This document shows positions 2,305-13,014 of a stretch of 64,000 nt of DNA, one piece after another (the stretch's first letter is position 1; the number at the start of each line of letters is the position of its first letter). Both the position numbers and the translations under genes were made by a program. Origin of the DNA: a bacterium (lineage in GTDB: Bacteria > Oederibacteriota > Muellerivitia > Muellerivitales > Muellerivitaceae); contig DASZRK010000017.1 of assembly GCA_035549195.1 (NCBI GenBank), positions 62,001 to 126,000 on the forward strand, in the 5' to 3' direction. The notes beneath the pieces are model-generated. The model had not been told where the DNA came from. It did not search any database and was given only the letters and a program-made list of their open reading frames with translations.

Positions 2305-3558
2305 ATGAACCCGGTCACCCTCTTCCTCGTTTCCCTCGCGGGCATCTTCCTGGTCGGCAGCGTGGGCGAAGCGGTCTTCAAGCGCACCAACATTCCCGAT
2401 GTGGTCTGGCTCATCGTCATGGGGCTCTTCGTGGGCCCCGTGACCCACCTGGTGGAGGCCCGCTCCCTGGGGCGCATCGCCCCCTACTTCGCGGCCCTGA
2501 CCCTCATCATCGTGCTCTTCGAGGGCGGCAGCCGCCTGAAGATCCGGGAAGTGGCCCAGGAGGCCCACCGCTCCCTCCTTCTCGCCCTGCTGACCTTTTC
2601 CGCCTCGGTCCTCGCGGTCTTCCTCGTTGCCCTGATCCCCGCCTCCGCGGGCCTTCTTCCAGGCTGGACCTGGCAGCATTGCCTGCTCTTGGGGACCATC
2701 CTGGGCGGTTCGAGCTCCATCGTGATCATGCCCACCCTCCAGCAGGCCAAGATCAAACCGGGGGTCTCGAACCTCCTGAACCTCGAATCGGCCTTCACCG
2801 ACGTCTTCTGCGTGGTGGGGACCAGCGCCCTGTTGGATCTCTTCACATCCAATGGCGGGAGTTCCCCCTTCGGCGCCTTGACGCGATCCTTCGGACTGGG
2901 CCTCTTCTTCGGCCTGGGGGCGGGGGCGGTCTGGCTCCTGGCCTTGAAACCCCTTCGTTCCATCAATCAGCCCTACGCGGTGACCCTTTCCTTCCTGATC
3001 CTCCTTTATGTATTGGTGGACCGGAGCGGCGGGTCGGCGGCCCTGGCCATCCTGGCCTATTCGGTCGTCGTCGGGAACGCGGGTTGGATCTCACGGAAAC
3101 TGAAGCTCACCGAACCCCTGGGGATGGGGGAGGACGTGCGGGGCTTCCATTCCCAACTGGCCTTTTTCATCAAGTCCTTCTTCTTCACCTTCATCGGGGC
3201 CATGTTGACACCGCCCTGGGGCTTCATCCTCTTCGGCGTGCTCCTGGGGTTCCTGCTCCTGCCCGCCCGTTATCCCGGCGCCTGGGTGTCCGGACGGGGC
3301 GGCAAGCTGGACGCGGGGGAAAGGCTGTTGGTCACCGCCTCCCTGCCCCGGGGGATGGCCGCCGGGGTCCTGGCCACCATGCCCGCCGCCGCCGGCATGG
3401 CGGGCACCGACGACCTGCCGGTCATCGTCTTCGCCTGCGTCTTCACGACCATCCTGATCTTCGCCGTGGGTTTTCCCCTGGCCCTCAAAAAAAGCGCCCA
3501 GGCCGCCGTGCCTGTCCCCGTTCCCGCCGATCGAACCCCGGACGACCCTGCCGCCTAA
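2305..3558 (+). CDS. cation/proton antiporter (monovalent cation:proton antiporter superfamily)
   Basis: Integral membrane protein of 417 residues with about 12 hydrophobic segments, likely exchanging Na+ or K+ for H+. It has the N-terminal architecture of the superfamily (FKRTNIPDVVWLIVMGLFVGP), a GGSSSIVIMPTL segment, LESAFTDVFCVV matching the acidic ES...D ion-binding region of CPA-type antiporters, and a C-terminal LPRGMAAGVLATMP stretch. It is not a close duplicate of the preceding antiporter; the motifs differ throughout. A KefB/NhaP2-like assignment is possible but no TrkA_N/RCK domain is fused. The 3' end overlaps the convergent diguanylate cyclase gene by four bases. Confidence 0.85.
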   Translation: MNPVTLFLVSLAGIFLVGSVGEAVFKRTNIPDVVWLIVMGLFVGPVTHLVEARSLGRIAPYFAALTLIIVLFEGGSRLKIREVAQEAHRSLLLALLTFSASVLAVFLVALIPASAGLLPGWTWQHCLLLGTILGGSSSIVIMPTLQQAKIKPGVSNLLNLESAFTDVFCVVGTSALLDLFTSNGGSSPFGALTRSFGLGLFFGLGAGAVWLLALKPLRSINQPYAVTLSFLILLYVLVDRSGGSAALAILAYSVVVGNAGWISRKLKLTEPLGMGEDVRGFHSQLAFFIKSFFFTFIGAMLTPPWGFILFGVLLGFLLLPARYPGAWVSGRGGKLDAGERLLVTASLPRGMAAGVLATMPAAAGMAGTDDLPVIVFACVFTTILIFAVGFPLALKKSAQAAVPVPVPADRTPDDPAA

Positions 3559-4412
3559 GGGACCGCCGTCCGGGGGGTGGGGCCCACCGTCCCCCGGCAG
3601 ACCTGGTCCTTGCCTCCGGTCTTGGCCCGGTACATGAGCTGGTCGGCGTGATGGACCATGTCCTTGACCGTCCCCGGCACCTCATAGAAGGTCGCCACCC
3701 CCAGGCTGGGCGTCACGCCCCACCCCCGCAACGCCATTTCGCCCCGGATCGCTTCCCTCACCCGCTCCACCAGCCCCTGGGCCTCCTCGGGACCCGCGCC
3801 CGGGAAGAGGATCCCGAACTCGTCGCCTCCCATACGCACCGCCATGTCGTCCTCCCGGATGTTTCCCCGGATGGCGCCCGCCACGATCCGCAAAAGTTCG
3901 TCCCCCGTCATGTGGCCCAGTTCGTCGTTCACCTTCTTGAACTCGTCCAGGTCCAGGAAACAAAGTGAGAAAGGGCGCCCGTTCTGGATGGAGGCGACCC
4001 GCACCCTTTCGGCCGCCTCGAAGAAGGCGCGGCCATTGAGCAGGTCCGTCAGGTGGTCCCGTTGGGCCATGCGCTCGTTATGGGCCGATTCCTTGCGCAG
4101 GCGGTCCGACAGGTAGGAGACCACCGCGAAAAAGATGAAGAGGACCACGATGTTCCAAAAGACCTCCCAAAGATGCGGGTAGATCTTGCGTTCCAGCAGC
4201 GGGTCGATGAGCAGGCTCAGGGAGGACAGCACCGAGATCAGGATCCCCGCCCCCAGGCCTGAATAGCGGGTCGCCAAATAGACGGGGACCAGCAGGAGCG
4301 CGGTCAGGTGCACTTCCAACCCGCTGAGGATGTCCAGGTAGATCAGGAAAAAAACGAGGGCCAGGGAAAGAAAAAGGATGTAGAAGCGTTGATGGGCGGG
4401 TGCTTTTTCCAA
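3555..4412 (-). CDS. membrane-anchored diguanylate cyclase (GGDEF)
   Basis: Makes cyclic di-GMP from two GTP. About four hydrophobic segments form an N-terminal membrane module (residues 8-105), followed by a short linker and a GGDEF domain. RMGGDEFGILF (GGDEF about residues 195-199) is intact, and an REDD sits five residues upstream, matching the RxxD inhibitory site for product feedback. I chose the TTG at 4410-4412 because a perfect GGAGG lies six bases upstream; the longer ATG reading at 4505 would overlap treT by 46 bases and add a low-complexity leader. It is the last gene of the trehalose operon, 47 bases after treT, so c-di-GMP signalling may be co-expressed with trehalose synthesis. 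Confidence 0.9.
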   Translation of the reverse strand: MEKAPAHQRFYILFLSLALVFFLIYLDILSGLEVHLTALLLVPVYLATRYSGLGAGILISVLSSLSLLIDPLLERKIYPHLWEVFWNIVVLFIFFAVVSYLSDRLRKESAHNERMAQRDHLTDLLNGRAFFEAAERVRVASIQNGRPFSLCFLDLDEFKKVNDELGHMTGDELLRIVAGAIRGNIREDDMAVRMGGDEFGILFPGAGPEEAQGLVERVREAIRGEMALRGWGVTPSLGVATFYEVPGTVKDMVHHADQLMYRAKTGGKDQVCRGTVGPTPRTAVP

Positions 4413-4459
4413 GGTTTTCCTCCAGGACCGGGATGGCCGGTCCCGAAGGCCGGCAAGGG

Positions 4460-5701
4460 TTAGGACGCCAGACGGACCACCGTCTTCCCGGGATTCAGCA
4501 CGCAAAGGAAAAGGCTCAGATAGTCCCGGATATGGCGCGTAATGAGGAAATTGCGCCGCACGTGCTCCCGGCCGTTCTTGGCGAAGTGGGCCGCCTCCTC
4601 GGGTTGATCCAACACCCTCCGGATGGCCGCCGCCGTCCCTTCGATGGTATGCACCAGGTAGCCCGTCTTGCCCGCCAGGACCTGCAGGGGAATGCCCCCC
4701 ACCGCCATGGCCACCACCGGCCTTTCCTTCCAGAGCGCCTCGGACACCGTGAGGGCGAAGCCCTCCTTCAGGGACTTCTGGAGCACGACGGTGCTGGCCC
4801 GTTGCAGGGCGTTGATCTCCAGATCGGAGAAGGGAGGCAGGTCCAGGATGTGGATGTCCGGGTCCTTCCCCGCCGCCTCCTGCAGGGCGGGCAGGATATG
4901 CACCGACTCGGGATCGTCCGACGCCGCCCCGCCCGCCAGGAGCAGTTGGCAGTCGGGATGGGTCCTCTTCACCTTGCGGAAGGCCTCGATGACGCCCAGC
5001 GGGTCCTTGAGCTTGTCGAAGCGGGAGACCTGGGTGATGAGGGGCCGCTTGGCGTCCAGCCCGTAGCGCCGCAGGGTACGCTGGATGAAATTCTCCGGCA
5101 GGTCCTTGTTCTTGTCCGAGAGCGGATCGATGGAGGGGGCCACCAGGAACTGGGGCTTCTCCATGTGCTGGGCGAAGCTGGGGTGGGAAAAGACCGAGGC
5201 GTCGTATTCAGCGATCAGGGGCCCCAGGAATTCCCAGGCGTTGGGGAAAGGCGTGGAAACGTCCACGTGGCAGCGGTAGATCCAACGCTGGCCCGGCTTG
5301 CGCAGACGCTTGATCATCCCCGCCGGCTGGGGGTCGTGGATGAAGACCAGGGGCCGGTCCAACTGGTCCTTGAGTTTGCCCGCGTTCATCTCCGAGATCT
5401 CCCAAAAGGCCTTGAGCATGGCGGGGGTCAGGGGTTCGGGACGCCCGTGCAAGGCGTTGTGCAGGGTCTTGGTGCAGGCATAGAAATCCGGCCGGCCCTC
5501 GATGACCTCCCAGCTGGTCTCCACCCCCAGTTCGTTCAGGAGCGGCACCATGTTCCGGAGGATCTCGGCCACCCCTCCCCCGTCCCGGGTGGAATTCACC
5601 ATCACGACCTTTTGATCCGAGAGCTTCCGGGCGATGCGCGCGATCAGGTCATGTTCGCTCGCTCCGATGATGCGCCGGTAATCCGTGTAGGGGGAGGTCA
5701 T
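4460..5701 (-). CDS. treT: trehalose synthase, glycosyltransferring (GT4 family, TreT)
   Basis: Predicted cytoplasmic GT-B glycosyltransferase of 413 residues that joins NDP-glucose and glucose to trehalose (reversible in known TreT enzymes). Recognisable features are VMVNSTRDGGGVAEIL near residue 35, VFIHDPQPAGMI about residue 120, WIYRCHVDVSTP, QVSRFDKLKDPLGVIEAF (start of the nucleotide-binding domain), and SLKEGFALTVSEALW, the acceptor/donor-loop E-x7-E type segment near the C-terminus. Its ATG overlaps the stop of the preceding DUF5752-like gene (ATGA), indicating translational coupling. The operon also holds otsA and otsB, so two independent trehalose routes are co-transcribed. A trehalose phosphorylase role is less likely at this length. 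Confidence 0.88.
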   Translation of the reverse strand: MTSPYTDYRRIIGASEHDLIARIARKLSDQKVVMVNSTRDGGGVAEILRNMVPLLNELGVETSWEVIEGRPDFYACTKTLHNALHGRPEPLTPAMLKAFWEISEMNAGKLKDQLDRPLVFIHDPQPAGMIKRLRKPGQRWIYRCHVDVSTPFPNAWEFLGPLIAEYDASVFSHPSFAQHMEKPQFLVAPSIDPLSDKNKDLPENFIQRTLRRYGLDAKRPLITQVSRFDKLKDPLGVIEAFRKVKRTHPDCQLLLAGGAASDDPESVHILPALQEAAGKDPDIHILDLPPFSDLEINALQRASTVVLQKSLKEGFALTVSEALWKERPVVAMAVGGIPLQVLAGKTGYLVHTIEGTAAAIRRVLDQPEEAAHFAKNGREHVRRNFLITRHIRDYLSLFLCVLNPGKTVVRLAS

Positions 5702-6450
5702 CAGGATTCCTTTCTCCAGCGTTTGAGCCAGTGGGAGGCCGCTTCCCCCGCCGGGTCATGGGATAGCCGGTCAGCGATCCGGTGGAAAGTGTCCCGGAGG
5801 CGGTTCCCCCGAACGATGCCGACCAGGCGCTTGCGGACGTTCTCCAGGTCCCCCTGGTAGGGATCCAGCGCCGCGACAGCCTCGGCCTGCTCGGGGAACC
5901 CGAGGTCCAAAAGCCATTGAGAGAAGTCATTGTGGAACCCGTCGTCCGGGCCGTGATAGTGGAGTTGGGCCTCGATCAGGTGGTAATGGATGCAGGAAGC
6001 GTCCACCCGCTCCAGGCCATGGACGAATTCCTCCAGGTTCGAGGCCCGATGTCCGGTCGAGAGGACCAGGCTGACGGCGCGGCAAAAATGGAACTCCAGC
6101 CCCGGGGGCACACGCCGGGCCCAGCGATCCGGTTCTTCCCGGAAAGGTTCGAGGATCGCGAAAACGGCCTCGCGCAGGGAGCTCAAGGTCGGATAGTCCC
6201 GCAGGTCCAGCGCCCCCAACCGCTCGGCGACCGCTTCCTCGCGGAGGTTCTGGGCCACCCAGAGGGCGAAATCGGACCGGTCCGAATGCCCGAGGAAGGA
6301 ATGGGCCCGGTAGAAGCGGTGGGTGTGGTGGTAGATGGAGGCGTCGTCCACCTTCTGGAGGCCCTCATAGAGCTCCTGGAGGCTGGCGGCCTTGATCCCG
6401 GTGAGCTGGACGGCCTCCACCGAGGTCATGAACTGGAATGGTCCGGGCAT
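5701..6450 (-). CDS. DUF5752-like protein associated with trehalose synthase
   Basis: A soluble 249-residue protein with no signal peptide or membrane segment. It looks like two related halves: each has a 'YHHTHRF / IHYHLIEAQLHYHG' histidine-rich helix and a following DF..WL..LG pattern (SDFALWVAQNL and NDFSQWLLDLG), which suggests an internal duplication. I recall such proteins (DUF5752) being encoded beside TreT-type trehalose synthases, consistent with the four-base overlap here. The clustered histidines could bind a metal, but no function is established. Start ATG has an excellent GGGAGGG ribosome site. Confidence 0.75.
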   Translation of the reverse strand: MPGPFQFMTSVEAVQLTGIKAASLQELYEGLQKVDDASIYHHTHRFYRAHSFLGHSDRSDFALWVAQNLREEAVAERLGALDLRDYPTLSSLREAVFAILEPFREEPDRWARRVPPGLEFHFCRAVSLVLSTGHRASNLEEFVHGLERVDASCIHYHLIEAQLHYHGPDDGFHNDFSQWLLDLGFPEQAEAVAALDPYQGDLENVRKRLVGIVRGNRLRDTFHRIADRLSHDPAGEAASHWLKRWRKES

Positions 6451-6465
6451 GATCCCTCCCTGGAT

Positions 6466-7140
6466 TTATTCTGGATCGTGGTTCTTGAGCATCTCGATGA
6501 GGAACTCCCGCGCCAGGTCCTTGGCGCCCAGGCCGAAGGCGATGGCGCCGCCCAGCCCCACCGCGCCCAGCACGATGAGGACCACCGTGGTCAGGAAGCT
6601 GCCCACCAGCCCCAGGGGCTCCAGCGAGAACATGACGGTCACTGCGAAGGTGCTCCAGGCCACCACCTTCCCCCAGAAGCGGGGGTGCTGGGCGCCCGAG
6701 CCCAGCAGGGCCAGTTGGGCCAGCACCGAGATGAACATGGCCAGCAGGCTTCCCAGGAAGAGGATCATCATGAAGCTCAAGACCCGGGGCACCACCCCCA
6801 GGAGGGTGTTGAGGACTCCCCCGCCCCCGCCCAGCATGTGGATGGCCAGCAGCACCGCCAGGAAAAGGACCAGGTAGAAGCTGAAGGCCGAAAGGGCCTG
6901 GGTGGCCTTGCGGCCCTGGAACCCCTGCGACCAAAGCCGGAAGAACCAGAGGTCCTGCAATCTTTTCTCGAGCCGGAGGGCCCGGAAGAGGGCCTCCACC
7001 AGCCAGCGGGCCATCCAGGCCAGCACGAAGCCCGCGGCCAGGACCATGAGGGCCGCCAGAAGGTTCGGTGCGAATCCCTGGATATCCGACCAGAATTGCT
7101 GGATCGGGGCCGTCCAATCCCTTCCCGTCAAGGGTTCCAT
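6466..7140 (-). CDS. MscS-related TM-helix membrane protein
   Basis: A 224-residue integral membrane protein with about five hydrophobic segments. LLAALMVLAAGFVLAWMARWLVE near the N-terminus and the C-terminal GGAIAFGLGAKDLAREFL are typical of the conserved transmembrane-helix repeat of MscS-like channels; the latter resembles the glycine/alanine-rich pore helix. The large cytoplasmic vestibule domain of MscS is absent, so it is a short channel-like protein rather than a complete MscS. It lies between otsB and the DUF5752-like gene, starting behind AAGGAGG. Context suggests a role in osmotic response, by inference only. Confidence 0.75.
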   Translation of the reverse strand: MEPLTGRDWTAPIQQFWSDIQGFAPNLLAALMVLAAGFVLAWMARWLVEALFRALRLEKRLQDLWFFRLWSQGFQGRKATQALSAFSFYLVLFLAVLLAIHMLGGGGGVLNTLLGVVPRVLSFMMILFLGSLLAMFISVLAQLALLGSGAQHPRFWGKVVAWSTFAVTVMFSLEPLGLVGSFLTTVVLIVLGAVGLGGAIAFGLGAKDLAREFLIEMLKNHDPE

Positions 7141-7181
7141 AACGCCTCCTTATTGATGGATCAACGCAACAAAGCTTTTCT

Positions 7182-7973
7182 TCAATCCCGAAGGAAAGAG
7201 CCGAGGAACCGGTGGACCTGGTCCAGGTCCCTCAGGCGGTAATGGGCCTGGGTGGGTTCGGGCCCCACCTTGAACCCCAGGGCGGTGATGCGCATCGAGC
7301 GCAGCACCGAAAAAGCGTCCTCATCGGAAGGGTCATCCCCCACATGCACGCAAATGCCCGGGGGCTTCCCCATGAAGAACCGGTCGGCGATGCGCCGCAG
7401 GGCGTGGCCCTTGCCCGGTGAATCCGCGGGCTTGATCTCCAGCACGCATTTCCCCTCCCGGTGGTCCACCGGCAGGTCCCGCACCGCCTCCAGGGCCTGG
7501 GGAAGCAGGACGGCCGCCCGATCCGGGGCCAATCGGCGAAAATGCAGGCTCAGATCCGGCCCCTTCACTTCCAGCAGGGCCTGGGGCCAGCTACGGACCA
7601 GTTTCTCCAGCCTTCCACGGGCCGCCTGGACCTCGCGGATCCAGGCGCTCAGGGCCGGAATACCCCAGCCGGCGGCCGGGGGCGAGAAATCCAGTCCGTG
7701 GTTCCCCACGTAAAGGATGCCGGGCAGGCGGACCTTGTCCCGCAGGTCCTGAACCGAGCGGCCGCCCAGGATGATTACCTTGGTTTCCGGCTGGGCCAGG
7801 ATCCCCGTCAGGACCTTACGGAATCGGTCCTGCAGATAGGCCATGGAAGGCGTGGGAGCGATCTCGGCCAGCACGCCGTCGAAATCCAGCGAGATGAGAC
7901 GGGGCGTCTTTTGGAAGACCGTCGGGCCGGCCTCCCGTTCGCCCCCGGGATAGAAATAGGGGGCGGCCTTCAT
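7182..7973 (-). CDS. otsB: trehalose-6-phosphate phosphatase
   Basis: HAD-superfamily phosphatase of 263 residues that dephosphorylates trehalose-6-phosphate to trehalose. Catalytic motif I is SLDFDGVLAEI (nucleophile Asp and second Asp), motif II VIILGGRSVQDL, the motif III lysine lies in GKGHALRRI, and motif IV is GDDPSDEDAF. LEIKPADSPGKGHAL is typical of OtsB. The ATG at 7971-7973 overlaps the otsA stop by the four-base ATGA, so translation is coupled with the enzyme that makes its substrate. Confidence 0.95.
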   Translation of the reverse strand: MKAAPYFYPGGEREAGPTVFQKTPRLISLDFDGVLAEIAPTPSMAYLQDRFRKVLTGILAQPETKVIILGGRSVQDLRDKVRLPGILYVGNHGLDFSPPAAGWGIPALSAWIREVQAARGRLEKLVRSWPQALLEVKGPDLSLHFRRLAPDRAAVLLPQALEAVRDLPVDHREGKCVLEIKPADSPGKGHALRRIADRFFMGKPPGICVHVGDDPSDEDAFSVLRSMRITALGFKVGPEPTQAHYRLRDLDQVHRFLGSFLRD

Positions 7974-9556
7974 GCCGTCCCCCTTTCCAGGGCCTGGTCC
8001 TCCGCCAGGTGGATGACCTCGGTGAGGATCTGCTGGGCCCAGGAATAGATGTTGTTCTCGGCCACCGTGAGGCGCATGCGGTCCAGGCGCGCCTTCTGCT
8101 CCTCCGCCGGCATCTCCAGGGCCACGCGAAGGGTTTGGGCGAAGCTCTCCATGTCGTAGGGGTTCACCAACAGCGCCTGTTCCAGCTCGCGCGCCGCGCC
8201 GGTGAAGGGCGACAGGACCAGCACGCCCCTGTCGTTGCTGGAGGAGGCCACGAATTCCTTGGCCACCAGGTTCATTCCGTCGTGCAGGGAGCTCACCACG
8301 CAGACGTCCGCCAGGCGGTAATAGGGGAGCAGGGTGTCGAAATCCTGGTGGCCCTTGAGGAAGATCACCGGTTCCCACCCGCCCTTGCCGTGCTTGGCGT
8401 TCAGGAAGGCACAGCGTTCCTCGATGGCGTTGACCACCTGTTGGTAATCCTCCAGGCCCGTGCGGCTGGGCACCCCGATCTGGAGGAACTTGATGCGGCC
8501 GTGGTATTCGGGATAGAGGTCGAGCAGGCGGTCCAGGGCGTCCAACCGCTCCGGGATGCCTTTGGTGTAATCCAACCGGTCGACACCCAGGATGAGCTTC
8601 TGCCCGGCGAAGGCCGGCTCTTGGGACAATTCCTTGCAAGCCTTCTCCACCTCCGGGCCCTGGGACTGCCGGAAGATGGAATCAAAGTCGATGGAGATGG
8701 GATAATAACGGACCTGGGTCACCCGGTCGCCCCGGGAGACACGGTGACGTTCCCAGTCGATCCGGGTCTCCAGTTCGGAGTCCACCGTATCGAGGAAGTT
8801 CTCGCTGTGGTACTTGAGGTGGAACCCCAGGATGTCGTTGGCCAGCAAACCTTCCAGGATCTCCTTCTTCCAAGGCAGGATGCGGAAGATCTCGGGATTG
8901 GGCCAAGGGATGTGCCAGAAAAGCACCGTGACTAGGTCGGGGCGAAGGGCCTTCAAGTGCAGGGCCACCCGGCTCAGGTGGTAGTCCTGCAGGAAGACCA
9001 GGGCGCCGGGTTCGGCGGAATCCGCCACGGCCTCCGCGAACTTGCGGTTCACCGCGTCGTAGGTCTCCCAGTCGGCGGGGTGGAACTTGGGCCGGACATA
9101 AGAAACGTGGCAAAGGGGCCAGAGGGTCTCGTTGGAGAAACCCTCGTAATAGCCCTTTTCCTCCTCACGCTCCAGGGCCAGACGCTTCAATTTGTAGCTT
9201 TCCTCGCCCGGTGGGACGGCCACCAGGCCGTCCGGACCGGCCACCTCGAAATCGGCCGCGCCCGCCCCGTGGCAGACCCAAAGGGAATGGAAGGCCCGGG
9301 CGATGGAGTCCAGTGCGATGGTGAGGCCGCCGGCGTTGCGGATGACGGTGATCTTGCCGTCGCGCATCACATGGGCATAGGGCTCCCGGTTGGAGACCAG
9401 GAGCAGTTGGCGGTCCTTGAGTTTCTTTCCGACCAGTTCGAGGAGGGATTCCCGGGTGGTGATATGGTCGAATTCCCGCAGGCGTTCGACGCGGGCGGCC
9501 GCGCGGTTGGAAGCCTCGGTGAGGCGGCGGAGGGAACGGCTCAGGTAATCCTTCAA
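7970..9556 (-). CDS. otsA: alpha,alpha-trehalose-phosphate synthase (GT20)
   Basis: Transfers glucose from UDP- or other NDP-glucose to glucose-6-phosphate, giving trehalose-6-phosphate. The 528-residue GT-B protein shows the glycine motif NAGGLTIALDS (variant of the GGLxxxL loop), VFLQDYHLSRV (LQDYHL motif), FWHIPWPNPEIFRILPW, ILGVDRLDYTKGIPERL and the C-terminal LHDGMNLVAKEF. These are all hallmark OtsA segments. It carries a roughly 50-residue N-terminal helical extension before the catalytic domain. Start is TTG with GGGGAG six bases upstream. It is the first gene of the operon running to 3555 and is divergent from a sugar ABC importer. Confidence 0.95.
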   Translation of the reverse strand: MKDYLSRSLRRLTEASNRAAARVERLREFDHITTRESLLELVGKKLKDRQLLLVSNREPYAHVMRDGKITVIRNAGGLTIALDSIARAFHSLWVCHGAGAADFEVAGPDGLVAVPPGEESYKLKRLALEREEEKGYYEGFSNETLWPLCHVSYVRPKFHPADWETYDAVNRKFAEAVADSAEPGALVFLQDYHLSRVALHLKALRPDLVTVLFWHIPWPNPEIFRILPWKKEILEGLLANDILGFHLKYHSENFLDTVDSELETRIDWERHRVSRGDRVTQVRYYPISIDFDSIFRQSQGPEVEKACKELSQEPAFAGQKLILGVDRLDYTKGIPERLDALDRLLDLYPEYHGRIKFLQIGVPSRTGLEDYQQVVNAIEERCAFLNAKHGKGGWEPVIFLKGHQDFDTLLPYYRLADVCVVSSLHDGMNLVAKEFVASSSNDRGVLVLSPFTGAARELEQALLVNPYDMESFAQTLRVALEMPAEEQKARLDRMRLTVAENNIYSWAQQILTEVIHLAEDQALERGTA

Positions 9557-9800
9557 GGATTTCTCCCCTCGACTGGGATCATCCTCTCCGGCTGGTTTCA
9601 GCGTTTCCTGGCCGGATCAGGCGGATGCGAACGACGATCAAAAAGCCCAAACCCACCATAAGCCCGCGTCCCGTGACTTTTCAACCCAAAAGCTCCCTTT
9701 CCCGGCCTTTTTACGGGAGAATGGACGCGCGGTACTTTCGTGTCTTTTTCATCCCTTCACTGTGCTATGAGTAGGACGATCCAAGCAACGGGAGATCATC
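9557..9800. promoter_or_regulatory. divergent control region between otsA and the sugar importer
   Basis: These 244 bases separate the starts of otsA (minus) and the substrate-binding protein (plus) and must hold both promoters. I see no gene. No hexamer pair is convincing; GCTATGAG near 9768 is a weak -10 candidate for the importer. A shared position means a single regulator could co-ordinate trehalose synthesis and sugar uptake, but no clear palindrome was found. Confidence 0.4.
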
Positions 9801-11141
9801 GTGACCGCAGGAATTTCCAGGACCGGATACGGATGGGCCCTCGCCGCCCTCCTCGCGCTTCCCATCGCCTGCGCGCCGGGGAACCCGAAGGCGCCCGCTT
9901 CGGGGCCCGTCACCATCACCTATTGGGAAAAATGGAACGGCTTCGAGGGCGACGCCATCCAGGCGGTGGTGGATTCCTTCAACACAAAGCAGGACCGCAT
10001 CCACGTGGACCTCATGACCGTCAGCGAGATCGAGAAGAAGCTCCTCATCGCCGCCGCCGGGGGCGACCCGCCGGACATCTCCGGCCTCTATTCGCGCAAC
10101 GTTCAGGTCTATGCCGAGAAGGGAGCCCTGGAACCCCTCGACGGGGACATGGCCGGCCACGGCATCCGGCTCTCGGATTTCATCCCCATCTATCTCAAGG
10201 AATGCCGGCTCCGGGACCGCACCTACGCCCTTCCCATCGCGGGCATGACGCTGGCCCTCCATTACAACAAGGACCTGTTCAAAGCCGCCGGGCTCGATCC
10301 CGACCGCCCCCCGAGAACGATCCGGGAGTTCGAGGAATACGCCCAAAAGCTCACCCTTCCCGACGGCAAGGGCGGCTATCAACAAATGGGATTCCTCCCC
10401 ACCGAGCCCGGCTGGTGGAACTGGTCCTGGCCCTATTACACCGGGGGCAGCCTTTACGACTACAAGACCCATTCGGTCACCGCCGACACGCCGGAGAACC
10501 GCCGGGCCCTCCAATGGTTCGCCGATTACTCGAGGAAATACGGAGTGGCCAAGACCAGCGCCTTCCGGGGCGGATTCGGAAACTTCGCCTCGCCCCAGAA
10601 CGCCTTCATGGCGGGCAAGCTCGCCATGATCCTCCAGGGCGTCTGGATGCCCACCTTCATCCGGCATTTCAACCCCAAGCTCAACTATGGGGTGGCCCCC
10701 TTCCCGGCCTATTCCGAGCAGGTCCATGACCGGACCCTCATCGAGGGCGACGTGGTGGTCATCCCCGCCGGGAGCCCGCACCCGAAGGAGGCCATGGAGT
10801 TCCTGGCCTACCTGGTCAGCCCCGAGGGACAGGAAAAGCTGAGCCTTTTGCAGGGCAAGTTCCCCATGTTGAAGAAGGTCTCCAAGGATTTCTGGAGGAA
10901 GAACCAAAACCCCTGGCTCCACGTCTTCCGGGACCTCGCCGACTCGCCTGGGGCCTTCACGGCGCCCCGCATGGGCATCTTCGCCGAGTACTTCGACGAG
11001 GGGAACGCGGCCTTCGACCAGGTCTGGCTGCTCCAAAAGACCCCGGAGGAGGTCCTCGGGGGACTGCAAAAACGCATCGGCAAGCTCTGGGCCCGGGAAC
11101 TGCGCCGCATGGACCGCCTGGGCTTGAAGCCATCGGATTGA
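9801..11141 (+). CDS. ABC transporter sugar-binding lipoprotein
   Basis: Extracytoplasmic solute receptor of 446 residues for a CUT1-type sugar importer. The N-terminus is a lipoprotein signal (LALPIACAPG, lipidated Cys about residue 24). The mature part begins VTITYWEKWNGFEGDAI, then NTKQDRIHVDL and AAAGGDPPDI, all standard for family 1 solute-binding proteins such as MalE/UgpB. NKDLFKAAGLDPDRPP and MAGKLAMILQGVW are further family signatures. Start is GTG with GGGAGA upstream. Two permease genes follow; no ATP-binding subunit is present, so a shared MsmK/UgpC-type ATPase elsewhere is implied. Substrate may be a di- or oligosaccharide such as trehalose or maltose, judged only from its neighbours. 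Confidence 0.92.
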   Translation: MTAGISRTGYGWALAALLALPIACAPGNPKAPASGPVTITYWEKWNGFEGDAIQAVVDSFNTKQDRIHVDLMTVSEIEKKLLIAAAGGDPPDISGLYSRNVQVYAEKGALEPLDGDMAGHGIRLSDFIPIYLKECRLRDRTYALPIAGMTLALHYNKDLFKAAGLDPDRPPRTIREFEEYAQKLTLPDGKGGYQQMGFLPTEPGWWNWSWPYYTGGSLYDYKTHSVTADTPENRRALQWFADYSRKYGVAKTSAFRGGFGNFASPQNAFMAGKLAMILQGVWMPTFIRHFNPKLNYGVAPFPAYSEQVHDRTLIEGDVVVIPAGSPHPKEAMEFLAYLVSPEGQEKLSLLQGKFPMLKKVSKDFWRKNQNPWLHVFRDLADSPGAFTAPRMGIFAEYFDEGNAAFDQVWLLQKTPEEVLGGLQKRIGKLWARELRRMDRLGLKPSD

Positions 11142-11269
11142 AAAGAACCATTTCACCACGGGCCGCCTTCGGCGGCGCACGGAGAAGGATCTTTGATCAA
11201 AAACGAGGGGCTTCGGCTTCCTCTGTGATCTCTGTGGTTCGATAATCTTCTTAAATTCAGGACGGGAAC
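11142..11269. repeat. intercistronic inverted-repeat element
   Basis: The spacer between binding-protein and permease genes is not random. It holds a perfect stem GCCGCC-TTC-GGCGGC at 11162-11176, and its outer parts read as an inverted pair: ACCACGG...CACGGAGA on the left and TCTGTG-ATC-TCTGTGGT on the right. This ACCACxGAG/CTCxGTGGT design resembles small dispersed intergenic repeats I know from many environmental genomes. A stem here could also lower expression of the permeases relative to the binding protein. Confidence 0.55.
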
Positions 11270-12160
11270 ATGACCGGACGGGAAAAACAGAACTTGAAGA
11301 TGGGCCTGGCCTTCACCGCGCCCTGGATCGTGGGGCTCGTCCTTTTCACCCTCTATCCGGTGGGCGCTTCCTTCATCTACAGCTTCTGCGACTACTCGGT
11401 CCTGACCAAACCCGTCTTCATCGGCCTGGGAAACTACGTGGACCTCTTCACCGACGAGGTCTACTGGCACTCGGTCTATAACACCTTCTACTACGCGGCC
11501 TTCCTGCTGCCCTTGAGCACCCTGGTGGCGCTGGTCCTGGCCCTGCTCCTCAACGCCGACATCCGGGGCAAAGGCGTCTACCGATCCATCTTCTTCCTGC
11601 CCTCCATCATCCCCATGATCTCCATGGCCATCCTCTGGCTCTGGATCTTCAACCCCAAGTTCGGCCTCTTGAACTACGCCCTGGCGCTCTTCGGGATCGA
11701 CGGCCCCTCCTGGCTCCAGGACCCCCTCTGGACCAAACCCGCCTTCATCCTCATGGGCGTCTGGACCGTGGGCAACGCCGTGGTCATCTACCTGGCGGCC
11801 CTGCAGGACGTGCCCCCAAGCCTCTATGAGGCCGCGGACATCGACGGCGCCCGCTGGTTCCACAAGATCCGCCACGTGACGCTGCCCATGATCTCCCCGG
11901 CCATCTTCTTCAACCTCGTCATGGGCCTCATCACGGCCCTGCAGGTCTTCGCGGTGCCCTACGTCATGACCTTCCCCATCCCCGGCCAGCCCGCCGGGTC
12001 GGCCCTCTTCTACACCATGTACCTCTACGACAACGCCTTCCGCTACCTGCGCATGGGCTACGCCTGCGCCATGGCGGTGGTGCTGTTCCTGCTCATCCTG
12101 GGCCTCACCTGGCTCATCCTGCGGCTGTCGAAGCGCAGCGTCCATTACCGGGGGCAATGA
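11270..12160 (+). CDS. ABC sugar transporter permease (MalF/UgpA-like)
   Basis: First inner-membrane subunit of the CUT1 sugar importer, 296 residues and six predicted membrane segments. AFTAPWIVGLVLFTLYPVGASFIYSFCDY is the usual N-terminus. The EAA loop that docks on the ATPase is at about residues 185-205 (EAADIDGARWFHKIRHVTLP, with the conserved A-x2-D-G-A). MISPAIFFNLVMGLITALQVF follows as expected. The stop overlaps the start of the second permease by ATGA. Confidence 0.93.
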   Translation: MTGREKQNLKMGLAFTAPWIVGLVLFTLYPVGASFIYSFCDYSVLTKPVFIGLGNYVDLFTDEVYWHSVYNTFYYAAFLLPLSTLVALVLALLLNADIRGKGVYRSIFFLPSIIPMISMAILWLWIFNPKFGLLNYALALFGIDGPSWLQDPLWTKPAFILMGVWTVGNAVVIYLAALQDVPPSLYEAADIDGARWFHKIRHVTLPMISPAIFFNLVMGLITALQVFAVPYVMTFPIPGQPAGSALFYTMYLYDNAFRYLRMGYACAMAVVLFLLILGLTWLILRLSKRSVHYRGQ

Positions 12161-13014
12161 CCATGGCGACCCTTCAAAGCCGCAAGCGGATGGAAAGGAT
12201 CGGGAAGGCCTGCGCGCACCTGCTTTTGGTCGGGGCCGGGGTCTTCTTCCTGGCGCCCTTGCTCTGGATGCTCTCCACATCGCTCAAACCGGTGGAGCAG
12301 ACCATGGCGGTGCCGCCCCAATGGCTCCCCCATCCCTTCCAATGGGGCAATTACGGGGAGGCGGTGCGTTACATCGACTTCTTCCGCTACACCGCCAACT
12401 CGCTCATTGTCTGTTCTTTATCGGTGGTGGGGACCTTGGTCTCCAGCTCGCTGGCGGCCTACGGTTTCTCGCGTATCGAGTGGAAGGGGCGGGACGCCTT
12501 CTTCTGGGTGACCGTTTCCACCATGATGGTGCCCTTCCCCATCCTGATGGTGCCCCTTTATGGGCTCTTCCGGGAACTGCATTGGATCGGGAGCTTGAAA
12601 CCCCTCTGGGTGCCGGCCTTCTTCGGGTCCGCCTTCAATATCTTCCTGTTGCGCCAGTTCTTCCTGGGCATTCCCAAGGAGATCAACGAGGCCGCCCAGA
12701 TCGACGGCTGTCCCGAATGGCGCATCTGGGCCTCCCTCATCCTGCCCCTCTCCAAGCCCGCCCTGTCGGTGGTGGCGCTCTTCCAGTTCATCTACAACTG
12801 GAACGACTTCCTGGGGCCTCTTCTCTTTTTGACCCGCCAGAAGGATTTCACCCTGGCCCTAGGCCTGCAGTTCTTCCAGAGCCAGAACGGCGGCACCCAA
12901 TGGCACCTTTTGATGGCGGCCTCGGTGCTGGCGTCGCTCCCCATCCTGGCGCTCTTCGCCTTCGCCCAGCGGACCTTCATCCGGGGCATCGCCATGAGCG
13001 GGTTGAAGGATTAG
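12157..13014 (+). CDS. ABC sugar transporter permease (MalG/UgpE-like)
   Basis: Second inner-membrane subunit, 285 residues, six predicted membrane segments. The EAA loop is INEAAQIDGCPEWRIWASLILPLSKPAL. Other family signatures are MLSTSLKP near residue 37, NSLIVCSLSVVGTLVSSSLAAYGFSR, and the C-terminal QRTFIRGIAMSGLKD, almost invariant in this subfamily. Translation is coupled to the first permease by a four-base overlap; an alternative in-frame ATG lies six bases further. The gene ends 10 bases from a convergent lipoprotein gene with no terminator visible between them. Confidence 0.93.
   Translation: MTMATLQSRKRMERIGKACAHLLLVGAGVFFLAPLLWMLSTSLKPVEQTMAVPPQWLPHPFQWGNYGEAVRYIDFFRYTANSLIVCSLSVVGTLVSSSLAAYGFSRIEWKGRDAFFWVTVSTMMVPFPILMVPLYGLFRELHWIGSLKPLWVPAFFGSAFNIFLLRQFFLGIPKEINEAAQIDGCPEWRIWASLILPLSKPALSVVALFQFIYNWNDFLGPLLFLTRQKDFTLALGLQFFQSQNGGTQWHLLMAASVLASLPILALFAFAQRTFIRGIAMSGLKD

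Follow-up and report, generated by a model that had tools for sequence, protein, structure and literature searches.

A trehalose gene module conserved across bacterial phyla, and a possible link between its DUF5752 protein OrfY and mechanosensitive channels

Introduction

Why would a bacterium gather two routes to trehalose in one gene cluster, together with a small membrane protein and a protein of the DUF5752 family? The question is raised by a minus-strand cluster found in the window analysed here, i.e. a stretch of 64,000 nucleotides from contig DASZRK010000017.1 (positions 62,001 to 126,000) of a bacterium of the phylum Oederibacteriota, whose genome amounts to 3.2 Mb in 80 contigs. The genes follow each other in the order otsA, otsB, membrane protein gene, orfY (the DUF5752 gene), treT and GGDEF gene (Table 1). 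The first five had been proposed, in this order, by a reading made by a model from the letters of the window (hereafter the sequence-only reading), and family matches to all five confirm it. The same reading saw in the cluster an unusual arrangement, coupling trehalose synthesis with release or sensing under osmotic stress. We find that the gene set is by no means rare, that its DUF5752 protein is, by sequence profile and predicted fold, the OrfY protein known from Thermoproteus tenax, and that OrfY is in some bacteria a part of a mechanosensitive channel subunit.

Results

A gene set shared by many phyla

The comparison was made on 80 named loci, the best of 437 OrfY relatives in genome contigs (L018-L021, which appear to be the same contigs as L013, L014, L015 and L011 respectively, and L100, the same as L084, were counted once). 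In 77 of the 80 loci orfY has a treT downstream, on its own strand, with a gap below 120 nt in 75; the exceptions are two contig ends and Brocadia pituitae, whose treT is 9.3 kb off. OtsA is present in 68 loci and OtsB in 64 (OtsA in 24 of the 28 loci whose flanks exceed 7 kb on each side), and the complete order otsA-otsB-orfY-treT is found in 47. The next commonest neighbour family in our blast clusters, a response-regulator domain, occurs in 11 loci, and no other family exceeds this number. The search for treT, otsAB and DUF5752 as neighbours in other genomes, which had been put forward with the sequence-only reading, thus finds their adjacency widely, and the arrangement cannot be called unusual. 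The set otsA-otsB-orfY-treT is a module conserved in many phyla of bacteria, and its conservation in the 80 loci leads us to reject that the operon was put together by chance or in one lineage only.

The association was also followed within three phyla. In that of the window (45 genomes), the 12 genomes that have OrfY are also the 12 with strong TreT matches (>170 bits), the two genes being neighbours every time, and three more genomes have weaker TreT matches (47 to 103 bits) and no OrfY. Five genomes of the phylum of L084 (Chloroflexi, 251 genomes) have 6 strong OrfY copies between them, each next to TreT, and TreT-type matches occur in 63 genomes. In the phylum of Brocadia pituitae 22 of 294 genomes have a strong OrfY, with TreT at 1.5 kb or less in 20, and at 3.3 and 9.3 kb in the other two. 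These counts indicate that OrfY accompanies TreT, but that TreT needs no OrfY. Among the control rows, Sulfolobus acidocaldarius carries both PF19027 (DUF5752) and PF21269 (the TreT_GT1 domain).

Some loci present local variations. Two Elusimicrobia have, inside the cluster and before otsB, a gene that reads from its sequence as a ClC-type chloride channel (L028, 5858-7243; L037, 2-1321). A treT several kb away from orfY is seen in Brocadia pituitae (L064 / G062) and in one genome of the same phylum (L142 / G565); the gene that follows orfY in Brocadia pituitae resembles, judging from sequence alone, the methylase subunit of a type I restriction-modification system.

DUF5752 is OrfY

orfY is the sole DUF5752 gene in the genome of the window. 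Its product matches PF19027 with 180 bits, for a curated cut-off of 23, and covers positions 2-207 of the 208 of the model. A profile of 54 OrfY relatives retrieves one convincing solved structure, 4cso (E 6e-37), whose title is 'The structure of OrfY from Thermoproteus tenax'. The predicted model of the window protein (predicted local distance difference test, pLDDT, 87.4) superposes on 4cso with a Z of 22.2 over 205 residues and a Foldseek TMt of 0.82; besides 4cso the aligner that gives Z returned only ViaA at Z 5.5 and rows below 3, taken as nothing. On these sequence and model matches DUF5752 is OrfY, and the protein that had been presented as of unknown role is therefore not wholly uncharacterised, its family having a solved structure.

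The internal duplication suspected by the sequence-only reading is confirmed: hhalign aligns repeat 1 on repeat 2 with a probability of 99.4 and an E of 3e-21, for a unit of about 100 aa, and the predicted model displays two strand-plus-helices units. By sequence and by model, OrfY is a tandem duplication. The residues invariant in the 54 rows include His42, Thr43, His44, Asp60, Phe61, Trp64, His157, Trp179 and Asp196-Pro197-Tyr198. Single OrfY-like units exist outside trehalose clusters (L016, L106-L112, L114): some are small proteins (about 103-111 aa), others end HAD + HerA-like ATPase proteins on the C-terminal side, and others again sit in large PPDK-like proteins, between a response-regulator and a PPDK_N domain. 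OrfY looks like the duplication of a wider domain family.

Two trehalose routes, and a TreT clade linked to OrfY

As had been claimed, both trehalose pathways are present, and both look intact from their conserved motifs. otsA is the sole GT20 gene of the genome; OtsA aligns over its full length with the solved trehalose-6-phosphate synthase 5jij (E 3e-82), and this alignment conserves motifs that we take to be those of nucleotide and acceptor binding. Its TIGR02400 score of 448 stays below the strict cut-off of 565, so that its subfamily and exact product are uncertain. OtsB scores above the TIGR00685 cut-off (123 bits for 68); the genome has two OtsB-type phosphatase genes, one in the operon and the other elsewhere. 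treT is the only TreT gene of the genome. Its product associates a TreT_GT1 domain and then a GT4 domain, with full-length homology to solved TreT: the best match is 6zj4 (E 2e-116) and the next 2x6q (E 2e-96), presumably the enzymes of Thermoproteus uzoniensis and Pyrococcus horikoshii respectively. It scores under the cut-off of NF041139, which is a model specific to Thermococcales. PMC11046441 names the TreTs of these two species as those whose structures have been solved. By sequence, PF21269, the two structural matches and the tree placement given below reject some other GT4 enzyme and agree with the name treT given by the sequence-only reading.

A TreT tree of 102 rows was rooted at midpoint. 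Matches covering 330 query residues or fewer, unnamed copies of named loci, several near copies among L001-L015, L098-L101 and identical-sequence repeats were excluded. A branch with support 100/99 separates all 86 OrfY-linked TreTs from all 14 unlinked ones, which are from Chloroflexota; this split requires 1 change, against a mean of 13.4 when shuffled. The window TreT is within the linked clade, the Thermoproteus uzoniensis enzyme is beside it, and the Pyrococcus enzyme is among the unlinked ones. OrfY-linked TreTs thus form one clade, apart from the 14 unlinked TreTs and from the Pyrococcus enzyme.

MscS genes in the clusters, and MscS::OrfY fusions

The window membrane protein has five hydrophobic segments and ends right after a last helix rich in Gly and Ala. 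It matches PF05552, the conserved membrane helix of mechanosensitive channels (Msc), with 43 bits for a cut-off of 22, and NF033912 below the cut-off. Its search for the MscS beta-domain PF00924, with E up to 1, found none, PF05552 being accompanied by one unrelated match below cut-off; nor did the family search find the C-terminal domain of MscS. The small MscS-like membrane protein of the sequence-only reading thus holds for the membrane helices, and not for the beta- or C-terminal domains.

In the comparison of the loci, the blast cluster of OrfY also pulled in MscS proteins through fusions, which revealed them. Detection was made with a model from the MscS proteins of the loci and a second model for the window-type membrane protein: 27 of the 80 loci match one or the other. 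Enrichment in MscS was calculated on those loci having full 8-kb flanks, also 27 of the 80. The genomes of these loci contain 38 PF00924 matches in about 72.5 Mb, hence 0.26 expected in these loci; 11 of the 27 have an MscS gene, about 40 times chance (Poisson P 9e-15), ten of them on the strand of OrfY. In several genomes the MscS copy of the cluster is the only PF00924 match among the matches listed.

Eight distinct copies, mostly from Chloroflexota, are MscS::OrfY fusions, each a single open frame 459 to 497 aa long (L044, L055, L084 and L092 among the 80 loci; L102, L104, L105 and L113 outside them). Two fusions examined by Pfam have PF00924 then PF19027, the junction comes after the beta-domain, and most copies have a P(L/V)KKA linker. 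One fusion was modelled (pLDDT 90.5; predicted template modelling score, pTM, 0.55), and the model matches 4cso on one hand, YnaI, MscS and MSL10 on the other. Compared with these three channels, the fusions retain the membrane helices and the beta-domain, and OrfY takes the place of the C-terminal domain; the window protein, by contrast with MscS-family channels, is devoid of the beta-domain.

Layout of the window operon and its neighbours

The five genes otsA to treT form a predicted operon. The otsA/otsB junction is an ATGA overlap, in agreement with the sequence-only reading; at the orfY/treT junction, where it had placed the same overlap, we find a 1-nt overlap, TGATG. The spacer between otsB and the membrane protein gene is 41 nt long with AGGAGG, and the one before orfY 15 nt with GGAGGG. 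A promoter-like site before otsA and, past the GGDEF gene, a terminator-like one fit with one unit, though in our scans of the window neither type of site is commoner than in shuffled sequence.

Table 1. Predicted features of the trehalose cluster (positions in the window)
Feature	Position	Strand	Basis and remarks
otsA, trehalose-6-phosphate synthase (GT20)	7970..9556	-	528 aa; TTG start behind GGGGAG; PF00982 E 4e-121
otsB, trehalose-6-phosphate phosphatase (HAD)	7182..7973	-	263 aa; PF02358 E 3e-31; TIGR00685 above cut-off
Msc-like membrane protein	6466..7140	-	224 aa; PF05552 E 3e-11; hydropathy, alignment with relatives
orfY (DUF5752)	5701..6450	-	249 aa; PF19027 E 5e-53; 4cso match by sequence and fold
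treT, trehalose glycosyltransferring synthase (GT4)	4460..5701	-	413 aa; PF21269 E 3e-51; 6zj4, 2x6q; tree
GGDEF protein	3555..4505	-	316 aa from TTG inside treT (start uncertain); about 4 hydrophobic segments; PF00990 E 8e-34
Promoter-like site upstream of otsA	9655..9684	-	9/12 matches; not above chance
Terminator-like stem-loop after GGDEF gene	3499..3514	-	not above chance

The GGDEF gene lies in the stretch 3555-9556 that the sequence-only reading treated as one operon, which left it unnamed. It encodes a membrane-bound protein, overlaps the end of treT and is perhaps a member of the operon. The 80 clusters showed no relative of it in their vicinity (0/80), so that it is rejected as part of the core module and a link with cyclic di-GMP would be lineage-specific. 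Divergently from otsA, at 9801-13014, are the genes of a sugar-type ABC transporter, for a solute-binding protein and two permeases; no ATPase gene was noticed among the open reading frames listed as far as about 14 kb. Comparable transporter genes are near 5 of the 80 clusters only, hence their rejection as module core. Two cation/proton antiporter genes (827-2077 and 2305-3558) run convergently toward the operon; an antiporter is encoded directly upstream of orfY in L005 and L006. The flanking antiporters, found at 1/80 loci only, were also rejected as core.

Discussion

Relation to known trehalose clusters

The association of TreT with OrfY is itself not new. Kouril et al. 2008, on the unidirectional TreT of Thermoproteus tenax, reportedly placed orfY upstream of treT and found the orfY-treT cluster conserved in many archaea and a few bacteria. 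The window resembles this cluster by OrfY being encoded directly upstream of TreT; the two OrfYs share their fold, and the window TreT clade neighbours a Thermoproteus enzyme. Unlike the T. tenax cluster, the window adds OtsA, OtsB and a channel-like gene, and its relatives include the MscS::OrfY fusions. With the bacterial OtsA/OtsB pathway it shares a GT20 synthase and a HAD phosphatase in tandem, which are usually not accompanied by TreT and OrfY. What we did not find in print, in a literature search of limited extent, is the link between OrfY and a mechanosensitive channel; the same search gave no dedicated paper on DUF5752, PF19027, 4CSO, or OrfY with trehalose or T. tenax.

A second operon of T. 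tenax, msc-gt-tpsp (Zaparty et al. 2013), also invites comparison. According to PMC3634074, it encodes a trehalose-6-phosphate synthase/phosphatase (TPSP), a GT4 protein and a small mechanosensitive channel of 197 aa that resembles the membrane region of MscS; the GT4 protein activates the synthase activity of TPSP through complex formation, and the proposed model is synthesis under stress and release via the channel. The window likewise joins synthase/phosphatase, GT4 and small channel-like protein in one operon, and its 224-aa membrane protein is, like the T. tenax one, made of helices only. On the other hand, synthase and phosphatase are fused in T. tenax and separate in the window, and the T. 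tenax glycosyltransferase resembles PimA and is without synthase activity of its own, whereas that of the window is TreT-like. OrfY does not appear by name in the description of msc-gt-tpsp, for the sections of PMC3634074 used here.

What OrfY might do

We propose that the cluster is an osmotic-stress trehalose module in which OrfY would be a post-translational adaptor between the synthase(s) and the channel-like membrane protein; as a whole, this proposal has in our opinion about even chances of being right. OtsA and OtsB would make trehalose from nucleoside diphosphate-glucose and glucose-6-phosphate, and TreT of the OrfY-linked clade from nucleoside diphosphate-glucose and free glucose. OrfY would be the dedicated, non-enzymatic partner of TreT. 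Acting post-translationally, it would be an adaptor or a regulatory domain linking TreT, and perhaps OtsA/OtsB, with a membrane protein related to mechanosensitive channels. In the window this membrane protein and OrfY have each their own gene, side by side; in the mostly Chloroflexota clade they form one polypeptide. The enzymes would be active, OrfY would bind TreT or the Ots proteins, and turgor or membrane tension would control trehalose synthesis or release. The adaptor role is suggested by analogy with the GT4-TPSP complex of T. tenax and by the occurrence of OrfY within a channel subunit: a domain able to be part of such a subunit would most probably work at the membrane, or upon its partners. 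The MscS genes in clusters and the MscS::DUF5752 fusions give substance to the coupling with a channel put forward by the sequence-only reading; release or sensing under osmotic stress is a putative function.

Several points weigh against this proposal. Lacking the MscS beta-domain, the window membrane protein may not be a gated channel. Sixteen of the 27 full-flank loci have no match to the MscS model within about 8 kb, although two of them (L019, L020) have the window-type membrane protein instead. The TreTs linked to fusions belong to a single clade with L050, whose contig breaks at that point, so that the fusion probably arose once, not many times. The loci were chosen by OrfY similarity and most genomes are metagenome assemblies; all unlinked TreT rows come from the Chloroflexota draw. 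Finally, the depositors of 4cso labelled the molecule 'ORFY PROTEIN, TRANSCRIPTION FACTOR'.

This label leads to another explanation: OrfY would be a transcription regulator of the trehalose genes, its linkage to TreT reflecting self-regulation of the operon and the channel being merely a co-regulated stress gene. Regulators indeed often adjoin their target genes. However, the fold of OrfY has one clear solved match, OrfY itself, and single OrfY-like units are also found in PPDK-like and HAD/HerA-like proteins. Besides, in eight distinct copies OrfY makes up the C-terminal end of a channel subunit embedded in the membrane, an odd location for a DNA-binding protein; these fusions weaken the regulator explanation, which we judge distinctly unlikely. 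The two routes might also be kept for flux only, one with glucose-6-phosphate and the other with free glucose as acceptor, OrfY being an assembly or activity factor specific for TreT without any tie to the channel, and the channel genes joining them as genes that respond to the same stress. OrfY indeed tracks TreT (77/80) far more strictly than channels (any Msc-type protein in 27/80), and several trehalose pathways coexist in Sulfolobus acidocaldarius (PMC7688234). Against it stand the in-frame fusions with their conserved linker, and we regard it as rather unlikely. At last TreT might work as a degrading enzyme, recycling trehalose imported by the divergent sugar transporter while OtsAB synthesises it. 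The sugar-type solute-binding protein and two permeases beside otsA are in favor of this, but such genes are near few clusters; the tree places the window TreT with the OrfY-linked ones and that of Thermoproteus uzoniensis, and not with that of Pyrococcus; and T. tenax TreT is described as unidirectional (PMC3634074 and PMC7688234). TreT degradation appears to us very improbable.

The adaptor proposal can be carried further: OrfY could be a mechanosensory coupling domain that physically holds TreT, and perhaps also OtsA/OtsB, on a channel of the MscS type, membrane tension directly switching the complex between making the osmolyte and releasing it. We consider this bolder form unlikely.

Whatever its exact role, a Pfam family of unknown function present in many bacterial phyla gains a setting, as the partner of one TreT clade, and in some lineages it is covalently tied to a mechanosensitive channel. 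These findings speak for OrfY acting after translation, although it was deposited as a transcription factor, and the speculative channel model of the T. tenax operon becomes a testable prediction in bacteria. If true, the adaptor proposal would tie turgor sensing directly to osmolyte synthesis at the molecular level.

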